A stretch of 64,000 bases of DNA from Micromonospora coriariae (GTDB lineage Bacteria; Actinomycetota; Actinomycetes; Mycobacteriales; Micromonosporaceae), in the NCBI RefSeq assembly GCF_900091455.1, contig NZ_LT607412.1, positions 6,696,001 through 6,760,000 on the forward strand, written 5' to 3'. The notes under the pieces are model-generated. The model was not told the DNA's origin. It did no database searches and worked only from the letters and a program-made list of their open reading frames with translations. Position numbers and translations under genes: made by a program. Each line of letters starts with the position of its first letter. Positions within the stretch are counted from its first letter, which is position 1. Below are positions 31,712 to 40,933 of this stretch, piece by piece.

Positions 31712-34066
31712 ATGACACGTCAGGTCCCCATCCGCCCCGCCCTGCCCCTGCTGCTCATCATCGCCCTGGTCGCCGGCGTCCTCGCCACGCCCGCCGAGCG
31801 GGCACGGGCCGCGCCGCCGAAGACGCCGCCACTGACCACCCCGTGGACCAACCAGGCGCTGGTCGGCACTCCACTGCCCGAGTACCCGCGACCGCAGATG
31901 ACCAGGCCGGACTGGCTCAACCTCAACGGGGAGTGGCAGCTTCGCCAGTCCGCCACCGACGACGCCCCGCAGTTCAACACCACCCTGCCCGAAAGGGTAA
32001 ACGTGCCGTTCCCGGTGGAGAGCGCGCTCTCCGGCATCCAGCGTGCGGCCAACGACAACCGCAACTACCTGTTCTACCGACGTACCGTCACCGTCCCACC
32101 GAACTGGTCGGGGCGACGGACACTGCTGCACTTCGGTGCGGTCGACTGGCAGAGCACCGTGTGGGTCAACGGCATCCGGGTCGGTGCGCACACCGGTGGC
32201 TACGACGCCTTCACCTTCGACGTGACCCCGCAGCTCACCGCCGGAACCAACGAGATCGTCGTCAAGGTGTGGGACCCCACCGACACCCGGCAGAACGGCA
32301 GCCTGCCGCCTATCGGCAAGCAGACCAAGCAACCCGGCGGGATCTTCTACACCCCCAGCTCCGGCATCTGGCAGACGGTGTGGCTGGAGCCGGTGCCCGC
32401 GGCCTCGATCAGCAGCGTGGACGTCTACCCGAACCTGAGCAACAACACCCTGCGGGTCCGGGTCTTCACGCGCGGCGACGTGAGCGGCCACAGCGTGCTC
32501 GCCGAGGCGCTGAACGGGAGCACAGTGGTCGGCTCGGCCACCGGCGGCTTCACCGACTTCAGCGTCCCGGTGCCCAACGCACGCCGCTGGTCACCCGACG
32601 ACCCCTTCCTCTACAACCTCCGGGTCACCCTCCGCAACGCCGCCGGGGCCACCGTCGACCGGACCACGCACTACTTCGGGATGCGCGAGATCACCACCGG
32701 CCTGGTGAACGGGGTGCTACGCCCCAAGCTCAACGGCCAGTTCGTGTTCCAGGTCGGCACCCTCGACCAGGGCTACTGGCCGGACGGGCTGTACACAGCA
32801 CCGACCGACGCGGCTCTCGCCTTCGACCTGCAGAAGCACAAGGATCTCGGCTTCAACATGGTGCGCAAGCACATCAAGGTCGAACCGCAGCGCTGGTTCT
32901 ACCACGCCGACCGGCTCGGCCTGCTTGTCTGGCAGGACATCCCGTCGATGACCGCGCAGGACATCAACGCGACCGACGCCCAGCAGGCGCAGTTCGAGAC
33001 CGAGGCCCGCGAGATCGTCGACGAGCACCGCAGCTCCCCCGCCGTCGTCGTGTACACCCCCTACAACGAGGGCTGGGGTGAGCGGGCCCTGGCGGACACC
33101 CGCCGGGTCGCGCAGAACATCAAGAACCAGGACCCCACCCGTCTGGTCAACCCGCACAGCGGGCACAACTGCTGCCAGTCCCTCGGCAACCCCGGCAACG
33201 GCGACATCGACGACTGGCACGCCTACCTCGGGCCGGACTCCCCCGCACCGTCGAGCAGCCGGATCGCCGTGCTCGGCGAGTTCGGCGGCCTGGGCCTGCA
33301 CACCCCGGGCCACGAGTACAGCCCGAACGGCAGCTTCTTCGCCTACGAGTGGCAACCCGATTCGACCGCGCTCACCAACCGTTACGTGGGTCTGGTGCAG
33401 GGCAGCCAGAACCTGATGCTCGGCAAGGGGCTCAGCGCCTCGGTCTACACCGAGATCACCGATCTGGAGGGCGAGCTGAACGGCTTCCTCACCTACGACC
33501 GTCAGGTGATCAAAATGGGTCAGGCACGGGTCCGTGCCGCGAACACGGCACTGATCAACGCCTCGAAGACCATCGGCAGCTCGGCGCCCGTCACTCTCCC
33601 GGTCAACACGCGGCGGTCGTTGCAGGTGACCACGCCCGGCCACACCAACCGGTACCTGCGGCACCAGGACGGTCTGGCCTACACCGAGGTCGTCGACGCG
33701 GGCAGCCCGACCCTGCTCAAGAACGACGCGACGTACACCATCCGACCCGGTCTGGCCGACGCCACCTGCTACTCGTTCGAGTCGGTCAACTTTCCCGGGC
33801 AGTACCTGCGGCACCAGAACTCGCGGGTACGCAACTCGCCGAACGACGGCTCCGCGCTCACCCGCGCCGACGCCACCTGGTGCGCGCGGGTGGGACTGAC
33901 CGGCACGGGCGTGTCGCTGGAGTCGTACAACTTCCGGGGCAGGTACCTGCGGCACTACAACTCGGAGGTCTGGCTCAGCAACGGCGCCGGCGGCGACGCG
34001 TACAACACTCCAACGCTGTGGGCCGCCGACAGCACCTGGACGATTGCCGCGCCCTGGGCGCCCTGA
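31712..34066 (+). CDS. secreted GH2-family glycosidase with C-terminal AbfB (CBM42) arabinofuranose-binding domain
   Basis: A 784-residue exported enzyme. The ATG at 31712 has GGAGA five bases upstream and begins a signal peptide ending ERARAA. Residues about 50-215 form the GH2 sugar-binding jelly roll (NYLFYRRTVTVP, VWVNGIRVG), 225-330 the Ig-like domain and 345-610 the TIM barrel with acid/base motif YNEGWGE (near 452) and probable nucleophile in VLGEFGGLG (near 522). The last 140 residues are AbfB/CBM42-type repeats: NRYLRHQDG, FPGQYLRHQNSRV and FRGRYLRHYNSEV. GH2 activity could be beta-galactosidase, glucuronidase or mannosidase; the CBM42 suggests a polymer bearing arabinofuranosyl side chains, such as arabinogalactan. 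Regulated by the divergent LacI-type gene. Confidence 0.92.
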   Translation: MTRQVPIRPALPLLLIIALVAGVLATPAERARAAPPKTPPLTTPWTNQALVGTPLPEYPRPQMTRPDWLNLNGEWQLRQSATDDAPQFNTTLPERVNVPFPVESALSGIQRAANDNRNYLFYRRTVTVPPNWSGRRTLLHFGAVDWQSTVWVNGIRVGAHTGGYDAFTFDVTPQLTAGTNEIVVKVWDPTDTRQNGSLPPIGKQTKQPGGIFYTPSSGIWQTVWLEPVPAASISSVDVYPNLSNNTLRVRVFTRGDVSGHSVLAEALNGSTVVGSATGGFTDFSVPVPNARRWSPDDPFLYNLRVTLRNAAGATVDRTTHYFGMREITTGLVNGVLRPKLNGQFVFQVGTLDQGYWPDGLYTAPTDAALAFDLQKHKDLGFNMVRKHIKVEPQRWFYHADRLGLLVWQDIPSMTAQDINATDAQQAQFETEAREIVDEHRSSPAVVVYTPYNEGWGERALADTRRVAQNIKNQDPTRLVNPHSGHNCCQSLGNPGNGDIDDWHAYLGPDSPAPSSSRIAVLGEFGGLGLHTPGHEYSPNGSFFAYEWQPDSTALTNRYVGLVQGSQNLMLGKGLSASVYTEITDLEGELNGFLTYDRQVIKMGQARVRAANTALINASKTIGSSAPVTLPVNTRRSLQVTTPGHTNRYLRHQDGLAYTEVVDAGSPTLLKNDATYTIRPGLADATCYSFESVNFPGQYLRHQNSRVRNSPNDGSALTRADATWCARVGLTGTGVSLESYNFRGRYLRHYNSEVWLSNGAGGDAYNTPTLWAADSTWTIAAPWAP

Positions 34067-34071
34067 CCGGT

Positions 34072-34103
34072 CGGAGGCCGCGACGACCCTGTCGCGGCCT
34101 CCG
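34072..34103. terminator. 13-bp perfect hairpin after the GH2 gene
   Basis: Arms 34072-34084 and 34091-34103 are perfect complements with a six-base loop, 5 bases after the GH2 stop. It also lies downstream of the esterase pseudogene on the other strand. Confidence 0.85.
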
Positions 34104-34109
34104 CTGACC

Positions 34110-34136
34110 CGGGGGGCTGACCTGGCCGGCCCCCCG
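34110..34136. terminator. second hairpin between the convergent GH2 gene and the esterase remnant
   Basis: Arms CGGGGGGC / GCCCCCCG (34110-34117, 34129-34136) with an 11-base loop, just 3 bases beyond the pseudogene stop. Together with the hairpin at 34072 it forms a double terminator for converging transcription. Confidence 0.7.
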
Positions 34137-34139
34137 CGG

Positions 34140-34470
34140 TCAGCCGGCGCGGCGCAGGCGTCCGAGCATGCCGTTGAGGTCCTGGACGAACAGCTCGCGG
34201 CGGAAGTAGTGCCCGCCCGGCACCTCGCGCCACTCGTGCGCGATGCCGGCCCGGGCGAGTGCGGCGCGGAACTCGCGCTGACCGGCCAGCACCTGGGTCT
34301 CGTTGACCGTGTCGAACCAGTTGACCGGATCGGGTGAGGTGCCGGCGGCCAGGAAGATCCGCGGCCGGTGCGGTGAGGGCGCCGCCGAGCATGCCGGCGG
34401 CGGCCACCGCGGCGGAGCCGCCGATCAACCGCCGACGGCTGATCGGCGAGGATGCGGGAACGTTGGACAT
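34140..34470 (-). pseudogene. esterase pseudogene: twin-arginine signal joined to an esterase C-terminus with frameshift
   Basis: From the ATG at 34470 (GGAGG five bases upstream) the first 34 codons are an intact Tat signal peptide (SRRRLIGGSAAVAAAG). The frame then turns into low-complexity Arg-rich text. One base over, the downstream DNA encodes a clean esterase tail: RPRIFLAAGTSPDPVNWFD, then VLAGQREFRAALARAG, and PGGHYFRRELFVQDLNGM before a TGA at 34140. The catalytic His region (GGHYF) is present, but the nucleophile and acid parts are missing. This is best explained by an internal deletion that fused signal and tail out of frame. It is the last cistron of the cell-wall-hydrolase operon. 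Confidence 0.8.
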
Positions 34471-34516
34471 CGGAACCTCCATGGTCCGGTGACAGGGGGA
34501 AGCCGCGAGCCGGGGA

Positions 34517-36034
34517 TTAGAAGGTCGTTTCGTTGGGCAGGCCGAAGAAGTCGTGCCACTTGACGCCGCCGCGGAAGGCGGTGCCGGTCGAGAGGCCGAC
34601 GTAGACGTCGTTCAGGCTGCCCCGGGTGAAGGCGACGATGTCGTCCCTGCCGTCGCCGTCGAAGTCACCGAGGTAGGGGAACTCGCCGGCCAGGCAGAAG
34701 AAGTCGTTCCACTTGACGGTGGTGCCGGCGAACGAGGTGCCGGTGGAGACGGCCGCGTAGACGTCGGCGTCGGCGTTGCAGGTGAACGTGACGATGTCGT
34801 CGCGACCGTCGCCGTTGATGTCACCGACGCGCGGCTGTTCGGCACCGACGGCGAACAGGTCGTGCCACGTCTGCGACGACCCGAACGAGGATCCCGTGGA
34901 CAGGGCGACGATCACGTCCGACGCGGTGGCCGGCCCCTGGGTGAAGGTGATGATGTCGTCCCTGCCGTCGCCGTCGACGTCGCCGAGCGCCGGATACTCG
35001 CCGGCGATCGAGAAGTACTCGTGCCACTTCAGCGCCGTACCGGTGAACGACGACCCGGCGGAGAGCGCGACGTACACGTCGCCGGCGCCGTCGTGGGTGA
35101 AGGCGACGATGTCGTCGCGGCCGTCGCCGTTGACGTCCCCCACCGCGGCGACCTCGGCGTTCGGCGCGAACCAGTCGTGCCACTTCGTGGCGCCCGCGAA
35201 CGATGACCCGGTCGACAGTGCCACGTACACGTCGGCGAGCGAGCCGTGGGTGAACGCCACGATGTCGTCGCGCCCGTCGCCGTTGAAGTCCCCGGACAGC
35301 AGCGTCTCGTCGTTCAGCCCGAAGAAGTCGTTCCACTTCACCGACGTCCCGGCGAACGAGGTCCCGGTGGACGCGGACACGTACACGTCGTTCAGCGACC
35401 CCCGGGTGAACGCGACGATGTCGTCGCGGCCGTCCCCGGTGAAGTCCGTCGGCGAGCCGGCCAGGTACCGGCCGCCGGACGACCCGCCGCAGTTGTCACT
35501 GACCAGGTATTTCTGGTTGTACTGCGACGGGTAGGGGGCGAGCGAGACGCCGTTTATGACGATCGTCTGCCCGACACCGTTGTAGAGCTGCTCGTAGTGG
35601 ACGTGCGGCCCGGAGGAGTTTCCCGTGCTGCCCGTGATGCCGATCTGCTGGCCCTGCTGCACGTACGCGCCGTCGGGCACGGAATAGGCGCTGAGGTGGA
35701 AGTGGTAGGTGGTCCACCCACCACCGTGGTCGATGACGAGGTAGTTGCCCGCTCCGCTGGGCTGCGAGTAGTGCCGCGCCACACCCGCGGCGGAGGCGAC
35801 CTGCGGGGTGCCGCCGGTGGTGCCGCCGTCGGCGCGGACGAAGTCCAGCGCCTGTCGGACCTCGGCGCTGTGGTGGTCGTACGTCCACCGCTGCCCGCAG
35901 GGGAACGGCGCCTTGAAGATCGGTGCGGCGAACGCGGGTGAGGGCGGCGCCACCACGGCGGCCAGGACCGCCGCGGCCAGGGTGAGAAGCGCGACCAGGG
36001 CGCGACGCGCGGGGGTACGTGAATGCCGGAACAT
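34517..36034 (-). CDS. secreted M23 (LasA-type) peptidase with FG-GAP/VCBS propeller
   Basis: A 505-residue exported protein. The ATG at 36034 has AGGAG seven bases upstream. A signal peptide (1-36, ending SPAFA) precedes an M23 domain (about 40-175) with zinc-ligand blocks DHHSAEVRQALDF, TYHFHL and GPHVHYE, typical of peptidoglycan endopeptidases. After the linker GGSSGGRYLAGSPTD, residues about 200-505 form six FG-GAP/VCBS units, each about 50 residues, with the calcium-type loop DxNGDGRDDI followed by DVYVALSTG and KWHDWF/KWNDFF. The propeller ends NETTF. The same propeller is carried by the next two genes upstream; this is the third gene of that operon, 20 bases after the amidase gene. 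Confidence 0.93.
   Translation of the reverse strand: MFRHSRTPARRALVALLTLAAAVLAAVVAPPSPAFAAPIFKAPFPCGQRWTYDHHSAEVRQALDFVRADGGTTGGTPQVASAAGVARHYSQPSGAGNYLVIDHGGGWTTYHFHLSAYSVPDGAYVQQGQQIGITGSTGNSSGPHVHYEQLYNGVGQTIVINGVSLAPYPSQYNQKYLVSDNCGGSSGGRYLAGSPTDFTGDGRDDIVAFTRGSLNDVYVSASTGTSFAGTSVKWNDFFGLNDETLLSGDFNGDGRDDIVAFTHGSLADVYVALSTGSSFAGATKWHDWFAPNAEVAAVGDVNGDGRDDIVAFTHDGAGDVYVALSAGSSFTGTALKWHEYFSIAGEYPALGDVDGDGRDDIITFTQGPATASDVIVALSTGSSFGSSQTWHDLFAVGAEQPRVGDINGDGRDDIVTFTCNADADVYAAVSTGTSFAGTTVKWNDFFCLAGEFPYLGDFDGDGRDDIVAFTRGSLNDVYVGLSTGTAFRGGVKWHDFFGLPNETTF
34641..34870. repeat. copy 1 of a near-identical propeller-coding DNA block
   Basis: This 230-base segment of the M23 gene aligns without gaps to 36179-36408 and 38263-38492. 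By eye it differs from copy 2 at about seven positions. It encodes the fifth and sixth propeller units including the cysteine-bearing TFTCNADADVYAAVSTG. Confidence 0.8.
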
Positions 36035-36054
36035 GGCGTGACTCCTGTCGGGGC

Positions 36055-38118
36055 TCAGAGGGTCGTTTCGCCGTTGAGGCCGAAGTAGTCGTGCCACTTG
36101 GTGGCGCCGAGGAAGCTGGTGCCGGTGGAGAGCGCGACGTGGACGTCGTTGGTGGATCCCCTGGTGAAGACGATGATGTCGTCCCTGCCGTCGCCGTCGA
36201 AGTCGCCGAGGTAGGGGAACTCGCCGGCCAGGCAGAAGAAGTCGTTCCACTTGACGGTGGTGCCGGCGAACGAGGTGCCGGTGGAGACGGCCGCGTAGAC
36301 GTCGGCGTCGGCGTTGCAGGTGAACGTCACGATGTCGTCGCGACCGTCGCCGTTGATGTCCCCGACGCGCGGCTGTTCCGTCCCGACGGCGAACAGGTCG
36401 TGCCACTTCTGCGGGGCACCGAACGAGCCGCCGGTCGACAGGGCGATGATGACGTCGCTGGCCGCGGCGGGGCCCTGGGTGAAGGTGATGATGTCGTCCC
36501 TGCCGTCACCGTCGACGTCACCGATCGCCGGGAACTCCCCGGGGATCGAGAAGTACTCGTGCCACTTCACGCCGGGACCGAAGCCGGTTCCGGTGGACAG
36601 CGCCACGTACACGTCGGCGTTGGTGTCGTAGGTGAAGGCGATGATGTCGTCGCGGCCGTCACCGTTGACGTCGCCGACGGCGGCGACCTCGGCCCCCGGC
36701 GCGAACCAGTCGTGCCACTTCAGGCCACCGCCGAAGCTCGTGCCTGTGGAGAGGGCCACATACACGTCGGCGAGGGTGCCGTGGGTGAAGGCGATGACGT
36801 CGTCCTTGCCGTCGCCGTTCACGTCTCCGGTGAGCAGGGTTTCGCCGGAGAGACCGAAGAAGTCGTTCCACTTGACCGACGTGCCCGCGAAGGCACTTCC
36901 GGTCGAGGTGGCCACGTAGACGTCGTTGAGACTGCCCTGCGTGAAGGTGACGACGTCGTCTCGGCCGTCACCGGTGAAGTCGGTCGGTGATCCCGCCAGG
37001 TACCGGCCCCCCGACCCACCGGCGTTGACCAGGGAGATGTAGTAGTTCCAGTTCCAGTTCGGCCCGGGGTCGGTGTGGTCGTTGCCGGGCAGCTCGTTGT
37101 GTCCCTTGATCGCGTTGCGGTTCTTCGGCAGGCCGTACCGGTCGCAGAGGTAGCGGGTCAGCGCGGCCGACGACCGGTACATGGCGTCGGTGAACCAGGC
37201 CGGGTTGTCCACGAACCCCTCGTGCTCGATACCGACGGAGTACGGGTTGGCCGAGCGCGCGTGGTAGGCCGTGTCGCCCTCGCGGACCATCTGGGTGATC
37301 TCACCGTTGCTGGACTTCACGACATAGTGCGCGCTCACTCCCGCCGACGGGTTCTGGAACCAGCTGACCGTGCCCGCGTACGACCCCTGGGTCACGTGCA
37401 CCACAACTGTGGTGATCCGCGACGATCGGCCCACCTGGTAGTTGCCGCCGTACGCGGGGACCCAACGGGCCGGTCCGTACTCCGGTACCGCCGCGGCGGC
37501 GACGTTCGGACCGGGCGCGCCGGCGGGGGCGACCCGGGCGTAGCGACCGAGCTCGGGTCGGACCGGGTACGGCGCGACCCGTACCGGGCCGGCCACGATG
37601 CCGGTTCGCAGGAGGTCGTAGACGTGGTCGGCGTAGAGCCGGGCCGTCGCGTCGTTGACGGCGGCGCTGTACCGCGCCACGACCGGATACCAGGCGGACA
37701 GCCGGTCCCGCGCGCCCGCCGTCAGTCCTTCACTGTCGGCCAGGTCGCGCAGGACCGCGGCACCGCCCCGGACGTTGGCGGAGGTGATCGAGCGCAACCG
37801 ATCGACCGGCTCACCGGTGAGCGTGGCCGCCCGTTCGAGACTGTGCTGGGTGGGATTGCTGACGAGGTGCATGACGCCGTATCCGTTGGCCTGGCTGGGC
37901 AGGCCGCCGTGCTCCTCCAGCCGCGACTCACCGTAGGCGACGGCGACCAGCAGGTCCCGTGGCACGTCGTATTCGCCGGCGGCCCGATCGAAGGCCGAGG
38001 CGAGTGGACCGGGGGCTGCGGGTTGGGAGGCGGCCGCCGGCGCGGCCGTCATCTGGCTGGCGAGCGCCACCGCCATGAGGAGGGCGCAGGCGCGCCACGA
38101 GAGCCTGGTCAGTCGCAT
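36055..38118 (-). CDS. secreted bifunctional cell-wall hydrolase: transglycosylase-like plus N-acetylmuramoyl-L-alanine amidase with FG-GAP/VCBS propeller
   Basis: A 687-residue exported protein; GGAGG lies five bases before the ATG at 38118. The signal peptide ends near residue 31. Residues about 38-190 are a lysozyme/transglycosylase-like domain with AVAYGESRL (catalytic Glu) and ANGYGVMHL. Residues about 235-375 form an amidase_2 domain with zinc ligands in VVVHVTQG and KGHNELPGNDHTDPGPNW and SVGIEHEG between. The linker GGSGGRYLAGSPTD leads into a six-unit FG-GAP/VCBS propeller (about 385-687) ending NGETTL. It should cut both glycan strands and stem peptides of peptidoglycan. It lies 20 bases after the stop of the upstream lysozyme-like gene and 20 bases before the M23 gene. 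Confidence 0.93.
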   Translation of the reverse strand: MRLTRLSWRACALLMAVALASQMTAAPAAASQPAAPGPLASAFDRAAGEYDVPRDLLVAVAYGESRLEEHGGLPSQANGYGVMHLVSNPTQHSLERAATLTGEPVDRLRSITSANVRGGAAVLRDLADSEGLTAGARDRLSAWYPVVARYSAAVNDATARLYADHVYDLLRTGIVAGPVRVAPYPVRPELGRYARVAPAGAPGPNVAAAAVPEYGPARWVPAYGGNYQVGRSSRITTVVVHVTQGSYAGTVSWFQNPSAGVSAHYVVKSSNGEITQMVREGDTAYHARSANPYSVGIEHEGFVDNPAWFTDAMYRSSAALTRYLCDRYGLPKNRNAIKGHNELPGNDHTDPGPNWNWNYYISLVNAGGSGGRYLAGSPTDFTGDGRDDVVTFTQGSLNDVYVATSTGSAFAGTSVKWNDFFGLSGETLLTGDVNGDGKDDVIAFTHGTLADVYVALSTGTSFGGGLKWHDWFAPGAEVAAVGDVNGDGRDDIIAFTYDTNADVYVALSTGTGFGPGVKWHEYFSIPGEFPAIGDVDGDGRDDIITFTQGPAAASDVIIALSTGGSFGAPQKWHDLFAVGTEQPRVGDINGDGRDDIVTFTCNADADVYAAVSTGTSFAGTTVKWNDFFCLAGEFPYLGDFDGDGRDDIIVFTRGSTNDVHVALSTGTSFLGATKWHDYFGLNGETTL
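36179..36408. repeat. copy 2 of the propeller-coding DNA block
   Basis: Collinear with 34641-34870 (offset 1538) and 38263-38492 (offset 2084). By eye it differs from copy 3 at about eight of 230 positions. Similarity to copy 3 continues beyond both ends of the block. Confidence 0.8.
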
Positions 38119-38138
38119 GGGAGCCTCCAGTTCGCCGG

Positions 38139-39581
38139 TCACAGCGTCGTCTCGCCGTTGAGGCCGAAGTAGTCGTGCCACTTGGTGCCGCCGAGGAAGC
38201 CGGTGCCCGTGGAGAGCCCGACAAAGACGTCGTTGGTGGATCCCCTGGTGAAGACGATGATGTCGTCCCTGCCGTCACCGTTGGCGTCGCCGAGGTAGGG
38301 GAACTCGCCGGCCAGGCAGAAGAAGTCGTTCCACTTGACGGTGGTGCCGGCGAACGAATTGCCGGTGGAGACGGCCGCGTAGACGTCGGCGTCGGCGTTG
38401 CAGGTGAACGTCACGATGTCGTCGCGACCGTCACCGTTGATGTCACCGACGCGCGGCTGTTCCGTCCCGACGGCGAACAGGTCGTGCCACTTCTGCGGGG
38501 CACCGAAGGAACTGCCCGTCGAGAGGGAGACGATGACGTCGCTGGCCGCGGCGGGGCCCTGGGTGAACGTGATGATGTCGTCCCGGCCGTCGCCGTTGAC
38601 GTCACCGAGGGCCGGGAACTCGCCGAACGGGCTGAAGTACTCGTGCCATTTCAGGCCGGGCCCGAACGAGCTGCCGGTGGAGAGGGCGACGTACACGTCG
38701 CCGGCGGGATTGTGGGTGAACGCCACGATGTCCGCGCGCCCGTCGCCGTTGACGTCACCGACCGCGCCGATCTCCGCGCCCGGCGCGAACCAGTCGTGCC
38801 ACTTCAGCCCGCCGCCGAACGAGGTGCCGTTGGACAGCGCCACGTAGACGTCGCCGGTGTTGCTGTGGGCGAAGGTGACGAGGTCGTCCCGGCCGTCGCC
38901 GTTGACGTCGCCGGTCGAGGCGGTCTCCCCGCCGATGGAGAAGAAGTCGTTCCACTTCACGGAGGTGCCGGTGAAGGAACCACCGGTGGACGTGCCCACG
39001 TAGACATCGGCGAGAGTGTTCTGGGTGAAGGTGACGATGTCGTCGCGACCGTCGCCTGTGACGTCGGTGGCGGAACCGCCGGCGATGGCGTGGGTACGGG
39101 CCGCCTCGTCGAGTTGGGCTCGGGCGACGGCCGCCACCTGGTCGTACCGGTCGGGGAAGCCCGACCGTTGCACACACTGGGCGACCTGGCCCGCGCTGTA
39201 CCCGGGGTTGTTGCGGTCGCAGACGATCGCCCTGGTCACGTACTGGGTGCTGGCGTAGACCGGGTCCATGATCTGCTCCGGAGTGCCCCAGCCGTAGTCC
39301 CAGCGTTGCTGGAACACCCCGAGCGACGACTTGTCGCCACACGGCAGGTTGTTCATGTGTGACTCGACCCAGCCCGCCTCGAAGGCGGACAGCGTCACCT
39401 TGTCGTTGGCGTTGTGGGCCCGCGCGACCCGGTAGACCACCAGGGTCACGGCGGGGTCACGGTAGGCGGGGATGGACGGGCAGGCCAGGGTACCGATCGG
39501 GTCGGCGTGTGCCGGCGCCGCCGCGACGGTCGCCACGGCCGCGCCGAGGGCGACCAACAGGGCCAGGAGAGTACGTCTCAC
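38139..39581 (-). CDS. secreted lysozyme/transglycosylase-like protein with FG-GAP/VCBS propeller
   Basis: A 480-residue exported protein starting at GTG 39581 with GAGGAG four bases upstream. The signal peptide ends PAHAD (about 27). Residues about 35-165 form a lysozyme-like domain: FEAGWVESHMNN carries the probable catalytic Glu, followed by SSLGVFQQRWDYGWGTPEQI, a pattern of transglycosylase-like actinobacterial proteins. From about residue 170 a six-unit FG-GAP/VCBS propeller begins (SATDVTGDGRDDI) and ends NGETTL. It is the first gene of a four-cistron operon with the amidase, the M23 peptidase and the esterase remnant. The upstream 224 bases form a divergent promoter with the DUF4185 gene. 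Confidence 0.92.
   Translation of the reverse strand: MRRTLLALLVALGAAVATVAAAPAHADPIGTLACPSIPAYRDPAVTLVVYRVARAHNANDKVTLSAFEAGWVESHMNNLPCGDKSSLGVFQQRWDYGWGTPEQIMDPVYASTQYVTRAIVCDRNNPGYSAGQVAQCVQRSGFPDRYDQVAAVARAQLDEAARTHAIAGGSATDVTGDGRDDIVTFTQNTLADVYVGTSTGGSFTGTSVKWNDFFSIGGETASTGDVNGDGRDDLVTFAHSNTGDVYVALSNGTSFGGGLKWHDWFAPGAEIGAVGDVNGDGRADIVAFTHNPAGDVYVALSTGSSFGPGLKWHEYFSPFGEFPALGDVNGDGRDDIITFTQGPAAASDVIVSLSTGSSFGAPQKWHDLFAVGTEQPRVGDINGDGRDDIVTFTCNADADVYAAVSTGNSFAGTTVKWNDFFCLAGEFPYLGDANGDGRDDIIVFTRGSTNDVFVGLSTGTGFLGGTKWHDYFGLNGETTL
38263..38492. repeat. copy 3 of the propeller-coding DNA block
   Basis: Third copy of the block in the lysozyme-like gene, aligned without gaps to 36179-36408 and 34641-34870. 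Confidence 0.8.
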
Positions 39582-39691
39582 GGTGCTCCTCGCGAGGTCG
39601 GGGGTCAGCTTGCTGGCTTCGCGTACCTGTCTCTGGCGCTGATATCGATTGCTGAGTGTGCCATCGGGACGATGATTTCTGTCAATGCCTC

Positions 39692-39708
39692 GTGAAGATT
39701 TCCTTCAC
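39692..39708. promoter_or_regulatory. inverted repeat GTGAAG-ATTTC-CTTCAC in the divergent promoter
   Basis: Perfect six-base arms with a 5-base spacer, in the AT-rich middle of the region between the cell-wall-hydrolase operon and the DUF4185 gene. It lies 25 bases upstream of the DUF4185 -35 box and about 110 bases from the hydrolase operon start, so one regulator could control both directions. Confidence 0.5.
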
Positions 39709-39732
39709 TATGTTGTCAGTGATAGGCGCTTA

Positions 39733-39761
39733 TTGACATCGACGTCCGTCGCAGGTTTACT
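39733..39761 (+). promoter_or_regulatory. promoter of the DUF4185 gene (TTGACA-17-TTTACT)
   Basis: A consensus -35 TTGACA at 39733-39738, a 17-base spacer and TTTACT at 39756-39761, 44 bases before the ATG. A second TTGACA on the opposite strand (39680-39685) could serve the hydrolase operon, but no good -10 follows it. Confidence 0.6.
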
Positions 39762-39805
39762 CGCCGGTAATCGATGTCCGGCCGCCCACCAGCAGAGGAC
39801 CCGCC

Positions 39806-40933
39806 ATGGGTATGCGTCGCCGCTCGTTCATCGGCCGTGTCGCAGCGGTCGGCGCCGCCGGCGCCCTCGGCGGCGCCGGAGCCGCCCTCACGGCGGCCGG
39901 GCCGGCTCAGGCCGCCGTGTGGAAGAAGCGGTTGACCGGCGCGGACCTCGACACCAACAGCCGGTGGCGGGTCGCCGGCACCGACCTGGGCATCCCGTAC
40001 GTGCTGGAGAACGGGTCGATCGGCTACCTCTTCGGCGACACCTTCGACACGCCGTGGCCGGAGGGCCCACCCCTGCCGAACGACTGGCGATCACCGGTCA
40101 TGTTGCGCTCCGCCGTCCACCCGGGCGCGTCCGGCGGAGTGGTCTTCGACAGCGCGGCACGGGTCGCGGGCAACGGTCGGGCTCCGGAGCTGATGCACAA
40201 CGGCCACCACGGCGTCGGCATCGACGGCCTCCCGGAGGTGACAGTCATCCCCAACGACGGCATCAGCTTCCCCGAGACCGGCCGGCAGCTCATCTCGTAC
40301 ATGAGCATCGAGAACTGGAACTCGGCCGGCCCGGCGGGACCGCACTGGAAGTCGCGCTACGCGGGGCTGGCCTACTCCGACAACGGCAACGACTTCGTCC
40401 GTACGCCCCTGAAGTGGTGGAACAGCCCGGACAACAAGGATCCGTTCCAGATGTGGACCATGCAGCGCGCCGGCGACCACGTCTACGTCTTCTCCGTGCG
40501 AGCGGGCCGCCAGAGCGGCCCGATGATGCTGCGTCGCGTCCGGTGGGACCGCCTCTTCTACCCCGAATCGTATGAGGGGTGGGGCTGGAACGGCACGGAC
40601 TGGGGCTGGGGGCGGCCCTGCACACCCATCCTCACCGGCCGCTTCGGCGAGCCCTCCGTACGCCGCCTGGCTGACGGCACCTGGGTGATGTCGTACCTGA
40701 ACTGCCAGACGGGATGCCTGATCACCCGGACCGCCCCCGGGCCGGACCAGGTGTGGACGGCCGAGAAGATCCAGGTCACGAGTTGGCAGGAGCCCGCCCT
40801 CTACGGTGGGTTCATCCATCCCTGGTCGAGCCGCGACGCCAACGGCCTGCACCTGATGGTCTCGAAATGGACCCGTACGCCGGACGGCCGCAGCACCGCC
40901 TACCACGTCAGTCAGTTCGTCGGCACGGTCTGA
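39806..40933 (+). CDS. Tat-exported DUF4185 protein, possible GH183-type endo-D-arabinanase
   Basis: A 375-residue protein. AGGA lies six bases before the ATG at 39806. The N-terminus is a twin-arginine signal (MRRRSFIGRVAAVGAAG) ending AQAA. The body fits DUF4185, a five-bladed propeller related to clan-F glycosidases: GSIGYLFGDTFDTPWPEG, RYAGLAYSDNGNDF and FGEPSVRRLADGTWVMSY. DUF4185 includes the family now called GH183, endo-D-arabinofuranases that cut mycobacterial arabinogalactan and lipoarabinomannan. Whether this member has that activity is inference. It is divergent from three secreted peptidoglycan hydrolases, which fits attack on an arabinogalactan-peptidoglycan wall. Confidence 0.85.
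   Translation: MGMRRRSFIGRVAAVGAAGALGGAGAALTAAGPAQAAVWKKRLTGADLDTNSRWRVAGTDLGIPYVLENGSIGYLFGDTFDTPWPEGPPLPNDWRSPVMLRSAVHPGASGGVVFDSAARVAGNGRAPELMHNGHHGVGIDGLPEVTVIPNDGISFPETGRQLISYMSIENWNSAGPAGPHWKSRYAGLAYSDNGNDFVRTPLKWWNSPDNKDPFQMWTMQRAGDHVYVFSVRAGRQSGPMMLRRVRWDRLFYPESYEGWGWNGTDWGWGRPCTPILTGRFGEPSVRRLADGTWVMSYLNCQTGCLITRTAPGPDQVWTAEKIQVTSWQEPALYGGFIHPWSSRDANGLHLMVSKWTRTPDGRSTAYHVSQFVGTV

Follow-up and report, generated by a model that had tools for sequence, protein, structure and literature searches.

What are three secreted peptidoglycan hydrolases, all carrying the same propeller, doing beside a gene for a predicted endo-D-arabinofuranase in an actinomycete? The question is raised by a locus in a 64,000-nucleotide stretch of Micromonospora coriariae DNA (the window; contig NZ_LT607412.1, G000:C1:6696001-6760000, where G000 is the window's genome, a single contig of 6.93 Mb). 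We consider it likely, from comparison of sequences, that the locus is a version of a modular secreted cassette which dismantles the arabinogalactan-peptidoglycan walls of other actinobacteria, either as food or as a weapon. In the proposed mechanism, near-identical FG-GAP propellers would hold a muramidase, an amidase and an M23 endopeptidase on the target wall, and an enzyme of glycoside hydrolase (GH) family 183 would cut D-arabinan and thereby give access to the peptidoglycan. Related cassettes would contribute further glycosidases (GH172 and GH43-like) and a PF00756 esterase; by way of the importers, the NagK-like kinase and the arabinose-5-phosphate-isomerase-like protein that some of them also encode, the released sugars would be taken up and used as food. 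As a predicted mechanism, the digestion of an arabinogalactan wall by propeller-held enzymes is well supported by the gene anatomy and by linkage.

The three hydrolase genes are adjacent on the minus strand: LYZ (38139-39581; GTG start, 480 residues), SLT/amidase (36055-38118; 687 residues) and the M23 peptidase (34517-36034; 505 residues). The two gaps between them are exactly 20 bp each, as the original prediction had it. LYZ comprises a GH184-like muramidase domain (residues ~28-165) and an FG-GAP propeller (~170-480), the SLT/amidase protein an unconfirmed SLT-like N-terminal domain, Amidase_2 (~233-353) and a propeller (~377-687), and the M23 protein an M23 domain (~73-153) and a propeller (~194-505). 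The DUF4185/GH183 gene (39806-40933, plus strand; 375 residues) is divergent from LYZ, with 224 bp between it and the LYZ start. Each hydrolase has a Sec-like signal peptide of its own and the DUF4185 protein a Tat-like one with the motif RRRSF, all four recognised by eye with no predictor and in agreement with the export first proposed. In the divergent intergenic region (39582-39805), TTGAC(A) motifs face both genes and are conserved across 12 aligned loci, the window included; they are putative promoters, and a consensus scan of the region gave no sigma-70-type site.

The SLT/amidase protein matches Amidase_2 (PF01510; E value 6.5e-33) over positions 3-131 of 131 and has AmpD-type matches in the PDB. 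The M23 protein matches PF01551 (E value 7.2e-19), and its His, Asp and HxH ligand columns are invariant in 17 of 17 rows. FG-GAP repeats are matched by Pfam in all three hydrolases. No Pfam match was obtained for the N-terminal domain of LYZ; a profile of its family (25 rows) matches the GH184 muramidases 8b2h (E value 3.2e-9) and 8b2e (E value 1e-5), the match spanning positions 50-123 of 130, i.e., the C-terminal half. The catalytic residue reported for KsGH184 is Glu41 (PMC10394673); its pairing with Glu73 of LYZ falls outside the main match, in a stretch of the alignment with a negative score. Every row of two alignments (25 of 25 and 34 of 34) keeps Glu73, the probable catalytic Glu. On sequence grounds LYZ is assigned as a GH184-like muramidase, which corrects the earlier lysozyme/transglycosylase-like label. 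The proposal of three different peptidoglycan cutters is retained for the lysozyme, the amidase and the M23 peptidase; the putative transglycosylase-like N-terminal domain of the amidase protein is without a Pfam match, and its Glu34 and Gly columns are invariant in 25 rows. LYZ resembles the GH184 muramidases of PMC10394673 in its profile match and probably in the position of the catalytic Glu, whereas the solved members described there are fungal and carry an SH3-like wall binder in place of the propeller. Elsewhere, the GH184-like domain is joined to PLL-like propellers (PF26607/PF03984) or to PG_binding_1, so that this catalytic domain is combined with wall adaptors of other kinds as well.

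The divergent gene was expected to encode a Tat-type DUF4185 protein, of a family that includes GH183 enzymes, an expectation that the sequence supports. PF13810 matches over its full domain (E value 1.6e-69; 234.9 bits against a cut-off of 39.5), and the protein aligns to the endo-D-arabinanase EndoMA1 (PDB: 8hhv; E value 1.1e-37). The nucleophile D33, the acid/base D51 and the third residue E243 given for EndoMA1 (PMC10509167) correspond to D60, D78 and E282 of the window protein, so that all three are kept. They are also kept in 68 of 68 aligned relatives (35, 18 and 15 from three query groups), an alignment from which stop-bearing matches and those of at most 750 bases were dropped and which some genes entered twice. 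The product is accordingly designated a predicted endo-D-arabinofuranase. A second DUF4185-like match in G000 (G000:C1:6002915-6003313) is weak (E value 6.5e-5, below the cut-off).

The pairing of arabinan and peptidoglycan cutters recurs in other named genomes. A contig scan with the LYZ alignment gave 218 confirmed hits, the best 80 of which make up 62 loci, some ending at contig ends, in Micromonospora, Catellatospora, Dactylosporangium, Hamadaea, Asanoa, Mangrovihabitans, Streptomyces, Actinophytocola, Amycolatopsis, Lentzea and Nonomuraea. The LYZ domain is present in 42 of these loci, and 35 of the 42 hold GH183 or GH172 (GH183 in 18, GH172 in 20), spanning Micromonosporaceae, Streptomyces, Pseudonocardiaceae and Nonomuraea; an amidase is found in 35, M23 in 16 and the domain U863 in seven. 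Streptomyces calvus (L189) has an uninterrupted series of five propeller proteins, namely U863, M23, LYZ, SLT/amidase and GH183. U863 itself has no Pfam catalytic match, its homologues are often named DUF4185, and PF13810 was found in 29 of the 120 listed. GH183 genes of the type termed GH183a lie beside propeller hydrolases in 14 named Micromonospora loci, in 12 of them divergent from LYZ/SLT and in two (L194, L204) in tandem after M23.

The propeller family is moreover fused elsewhere to GH183, GH172 (~1090 residues) and GH43-like enzymes, in loci with peptidoglycan cutters. Characterised GH172 members include exo-alpha-D-arabinofuranosidases (PMC10115798). The GH43-like propeller protein occurs in Pseudonocardiaceae and Mangrovihabitans (by Pfam for L174 only, by eye for the other five), and further fusions are to GH59 in L208 and to a glucosaminidase in L206. 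In Catellatospora, the propeller is also joined in one protein to a polysaccharide-lyase-like domain, PF14099 (L126 by Pfam; L191, L196 and L198 by similarity), the substrate of which could be an acidic wall polymer, and subtilases with a related propeller are found in L133 and L138 (Pfam) and L139 (by similarity).

Genes for the use of the products accompany some of these cassettes. Those of Catellatospora (G125, G016) and Hamadaea (G039, G080) encode a PfkB sugar kinase, a KpsF/GutQ-type isomerase and a solute-binding protein (in Hamadaea its identity to the query is only 28%), and a NagK-like kinase is encoded in the Catellatospora cassette regions. The proteins of G125 served to test the catabolic family names, and every score falls short of the curated NCBIfam cut-off (202.0 for kpsF, with the cut-off at 203.7; 280.8 for ribokinase, with 299.65; 90.7 for NagK, with 370), so that the names denote families and not proven functions. 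Together, the import, arabinose-5-phosphate-isomerase-like and NagK-like genes of the relatives point to feeding on the released sugars. The full D-arabinan utilisation set (GH183, GH172, importer and catabolic genes) is found together in Catellatospora and Hamadaea; the window holds only GH183. The single GH172 of G000 is without the cassette propeller and lies 1.58 Mb from the window cassette, in a locus (L213; G000:C1:5143000-5162900) with an FGGY kinase, a LacI regulator, a ribose-type importer and a GH43-like protein, which makes it a candidate locus for the use of D-arabinose or arabinogalactan.

Comparable D-arabinan loci have been described in Microbacterium arabinogalactanolyticum and Dysgonomonas gadei, with GH183 and GH172 and, in Microbacterium only, GH116 (PMC10509167, PMC10115798). 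The fullest relatives of the window cassette are like them in holding GH183, GH172, ABC import and sugar catabolism. They differ from those loci, as described, in the three peptidoglycan hydrolases and the shared propeller, and the window differs further in having GH183 alone and no importer. Endo-D-arabinanase is also paired with wall lysis in the DUF4185-containing lysis cassettes of some actinobacteriophages (PMC10115798); in contrast to these, the window set is cellular, secreted and propeller-linked, and has several peptidoglycan cutters.

A further component is an esterase of the Tat-exported PF00756 type, of which the window retains a remnant (33955-34482, minus strand) consisting of the signal region and a C-terminal piece. 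In M. saelicesensis (L153) and relatives, a Tat-like PF00756 esterase begins 19-44 bases after the last propeller match; in four Catellatospora loci one directly follows the GH183 gene, and in L193, L194 and L204 one stands beside M23. Of 141 loci searched, which were preselected for LYZ, propeller or GH183 and so give no background rate, 15 contain a full-length esterase (two of the 15 being the same place), and L151, L187 and L039/L179 contain fragments only. The window remnant is a decayed cassette esterase gene that is intact in several Micromonospora relatives. The best PDB relatives of the esterase are feruloyl esterases (E value 2e-16), with a weaker match (E value 1e-6) to a chain of the mycolyltransferase Cmt1. 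The enzyme may strip mycolyl or other acyl groups.

The propellers bear on what the enzymes might be aimed at. Each of those in the window has six FG-GAP motifs in 311-312 residues, and protein identity among the three is 79.4-83.6%, in keeping with the common propeller of roughly 300 residues first described. In all three genes, DNA identity reaches 94-99% in two 90-base segments between the fifth and sixth motifs (34645-34825 and its counterparts in the other two hydrolase genes), which suggests recent gene conversion. Beyond the three, G000 has one weak propeller match (35%; E value 1.5e-12; G000:C1:6540865-6541671), located in a secreted-looking protein of ~640 residues. Among 140 propellers compared (matches above 840 bases without stops), LYZ and amidase propellers of the same locus are on average 84.4% identical (28 pairs, 76-96%), and LYZ propellers of different families 63.9% (324 pairs). 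GH172 propellers are 62.4% identical across families (116 pairs) as against 56.1% to their own-locus partners (39 pairs). In the tree, the nearest neighbour is of the same enzyme type for 104 of the 140 and from the same locus for 23; the same-type neighbours are probably due to dense sampling of close relatives. Homogenisation within loci combined with divergence between families makes it plausible that the propellers of the peptidoglycan cutters share a lineage-specific ligand, a pattern that gene conversion without a common ligand could also explain. The suggestion that the propeller directs all enzymes to one ligand can hence be proposed for the three cutters and does not extend to the DUF4185 protein of the window, which has none. 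A single ligand for all enzymes of all cassettes was rejected, since the GH172 propellers form a separate lineage and the window GH183 lacks a propeller.

Among PDB chains, the propeller is related to those labelled 'secreted esterase' (9oee and 8w20; E values 5.8e-6 to 2e-12). The entry 8W20 was confirmed as an umbrella-toxin deposit, and 9OEE, which was not found in the literature text, is presumably UmbA4, whose propeller is reported to bind a teichuronic-acid-like polymer (PMC13274773). By this analogy, the window propellers are probably lectins. They resemble the Streptomyces UmbA lectin subunits (PMC11062931, PMC13274773) in sequence and differ from them, as described, in being fused to wall hydrolases and in lacking the trypsin-like domain by Pfam. 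An umbrella toxin proper was rejected on the latter ground; a search of G000 for ALF gave no match and, having no positive control, says nothing about its absence.

The likeness also raises the possibility, in our view a doubtful one, that the cassette serves antagonism and not feeding, as a weapon that lyses neighbouring actinobacteria and, like umbrella toxins, is aimed by its propeller lectins. Besides the match to umbrella-toxin chains, it would account for propellers that are alike within loci and divergent between families, given that UmbA lectins are reported to bind variable wall glycans and to set the target range (PMC13274773). The importers, arabinose-5-phosphate-isomerase-like protein and NagK-like kinase of related cassettes, on the other hand, point to use of the products, and no immunity-like gene was noticed, none having been systematically sought. 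On the present evidence, feeding and attack cannot be separated.

Whose wall would be cut can be approached through the genes for arabinan synthesis. Neither Emb (PF04602) nor AftA (PF12250) has a match in G000, in a search for which the Corynebacterium glutamicum control was positive for both; in the family, Emb was found in one of 61 genomes and AftA in 11 of 41. According to PMC6194230, arabinogalactan occurs only in Corynebacteriales and in certain species of Pseudonocardiales and Actinopolysporales. Taken together, the two lines of evidence indicate that for the window's strain the arabinan target is probably foreign, and we infer that it is mycobacteria-like. Micromonospora is listed among facultative predators in a table row that covers five other genera as well, and the prey in the study behind that row include M. 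smegmatis (PMC9905845).

The alternative already attached to the original prediction, in which the enzymes remodel the wall of the cell that makes them as it grows or sporulates, and GH183 acts on an arabinose polymer of that cell, is argued against by the same negative result, and was rejected as a first choice for this reason. In favour of such a role are the AftA-like genes of the family, the status of whole-cell arabinose as a marker of Micromonospora, and the frequent use of M23 and amidase enzymes in remodelling a cell's own wall. The sugar import genes of the relatives speak against it, and so does the patchy distribution of the propeller (37 of 200 genomes), which is unlike that of a core function. 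We regard self-remodelling as improbable.

The original prediction was to be refuted by a lack of conserved linkage, and this refutation does not come about: the system is real, and the arabinanase families keep their linkage to the hydrolase set, as in the 35 of 42 loci above. For the close orthologues of the window gene, linkage is mostly absent. A DUF4185 match at an E value of 1e-20 or better occurs in 35 of 200 Micromonosporaceae genomes, and 16 of the 35, the window's own included, hold close orthologues (60-100%). In the other 15 genomes, the orthologue lies beside propeller hydrolases in two (G165, G199). In G065 (L037/L144; G065:C45 near 143694) GH183a is kept with only a propeller scrap adjoining, and the locus looks as if hydrolase genes had been lost. 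More distant DUF4185 proteins (~37% identical) are fused to the propeller, and in G125 and G071 they adjoin an amidase-propeller protein. The propeller query matches the 37 genomes at an E value of 1e-40, and among the genomes listed it is found in six congeners (the window's own included), with no match in 20 further ones. A subset of the hits, 79 stretches, was retrieved, and the 78 outside G000 were tabulated. Within these, LYZ or amidase domains occur in 22 other genomes, and in 18 of the 22 a GH172 or GH183 lies no more than 10 kb away. The remaining four are G037, G109, G118 and G129; G109 and G129 have a GH172-propeller beside an M23-propeller on another contig, and G118 has a GH172-propeller and a GH183-propeller on further contigs.

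Several observations weigh against a cassette for digesting foreign walls. For 12 of the 15 other genomes, the 8.5 kb around the close DUF4185 orthologue contain no propeller hydrolase, although several of the 12 hold a propeller cassette elsewhere, and no shared neighbours of the 12 unlinked GH183a genes were found. Seven of the 42 LYZ loci have no GH183 or GH172 domain match (L160, L161, L164, L171, L172, L173 and L185); a propeller of the GH172 type is present in L160 and L173, and L185 consists of a 4.6 kb contig. The window GH183 carries no propeller, import genes do not adjoin the cassette in the window, and the fucose-isomerase match in L213 is just under the Pfam cut-offs. Finally, the relatives with AftA-like genes may make arabinan themselves, and in the Pseudonocardiaceae carriers the arabinan target may be their own or foreign. 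That the window GH183 gene is a chance neighbour of the hydrolases, as its unlinked orthologues could imply, is nevertheless highly improbable in view of the 14 Micromonospora loci in two arrangements, the cassettes in which GH183 or GH172 is fused to the propeller, and a chance of about 1% for a hit within 10 kb (a rough estimate from few such genes per genome of 7-10 Mb, related genomes being non-independent).

Within the reading of the locus as a cassette against foreign arabinogalactan walls, a bolder version can be put forward tentatively, and we would not expect it to hold in full. According to this version, enzymes that carry the propeller family (GH184-like muramidase, amidase, M23 peptidase, GH183, GH172 and GH43-like) and the Tat esterase jointly form a cellular, lectin-targeted wall-eating machine, spread across actinomycete lineages mostly not known for arabinogalactan, which preys on or scavenges arabinogalactan-bearing neighbours and whose concertedly evolving propellers set the prey wall. 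No description of a coupled cassette of propeller, arabinan-cutting and peptidoglycan-cutting enzymes was found in the open-licence literature searched, among the matches listed. The D-arabinan-degrading GH172 and GH183 enzymes were characterised in 2023, mainly from mycobacteria, gut Bacteroidota and Microbacterium (PMC10115798, PMC10509167); the parts are known families, and their combination does not appear within those matches. If the proposal is true, it would explain, in a form open to testing, how actinomycetes that are not mycolata digest mycolata-type walls. The cassette would provide a matched set of enzymes with which to take such walls apart, its propellers would be candidate wall-glycan probes, and their homogenisation within loci, as an evolutionary signal, would offer a way to test whether a ligand is shared.

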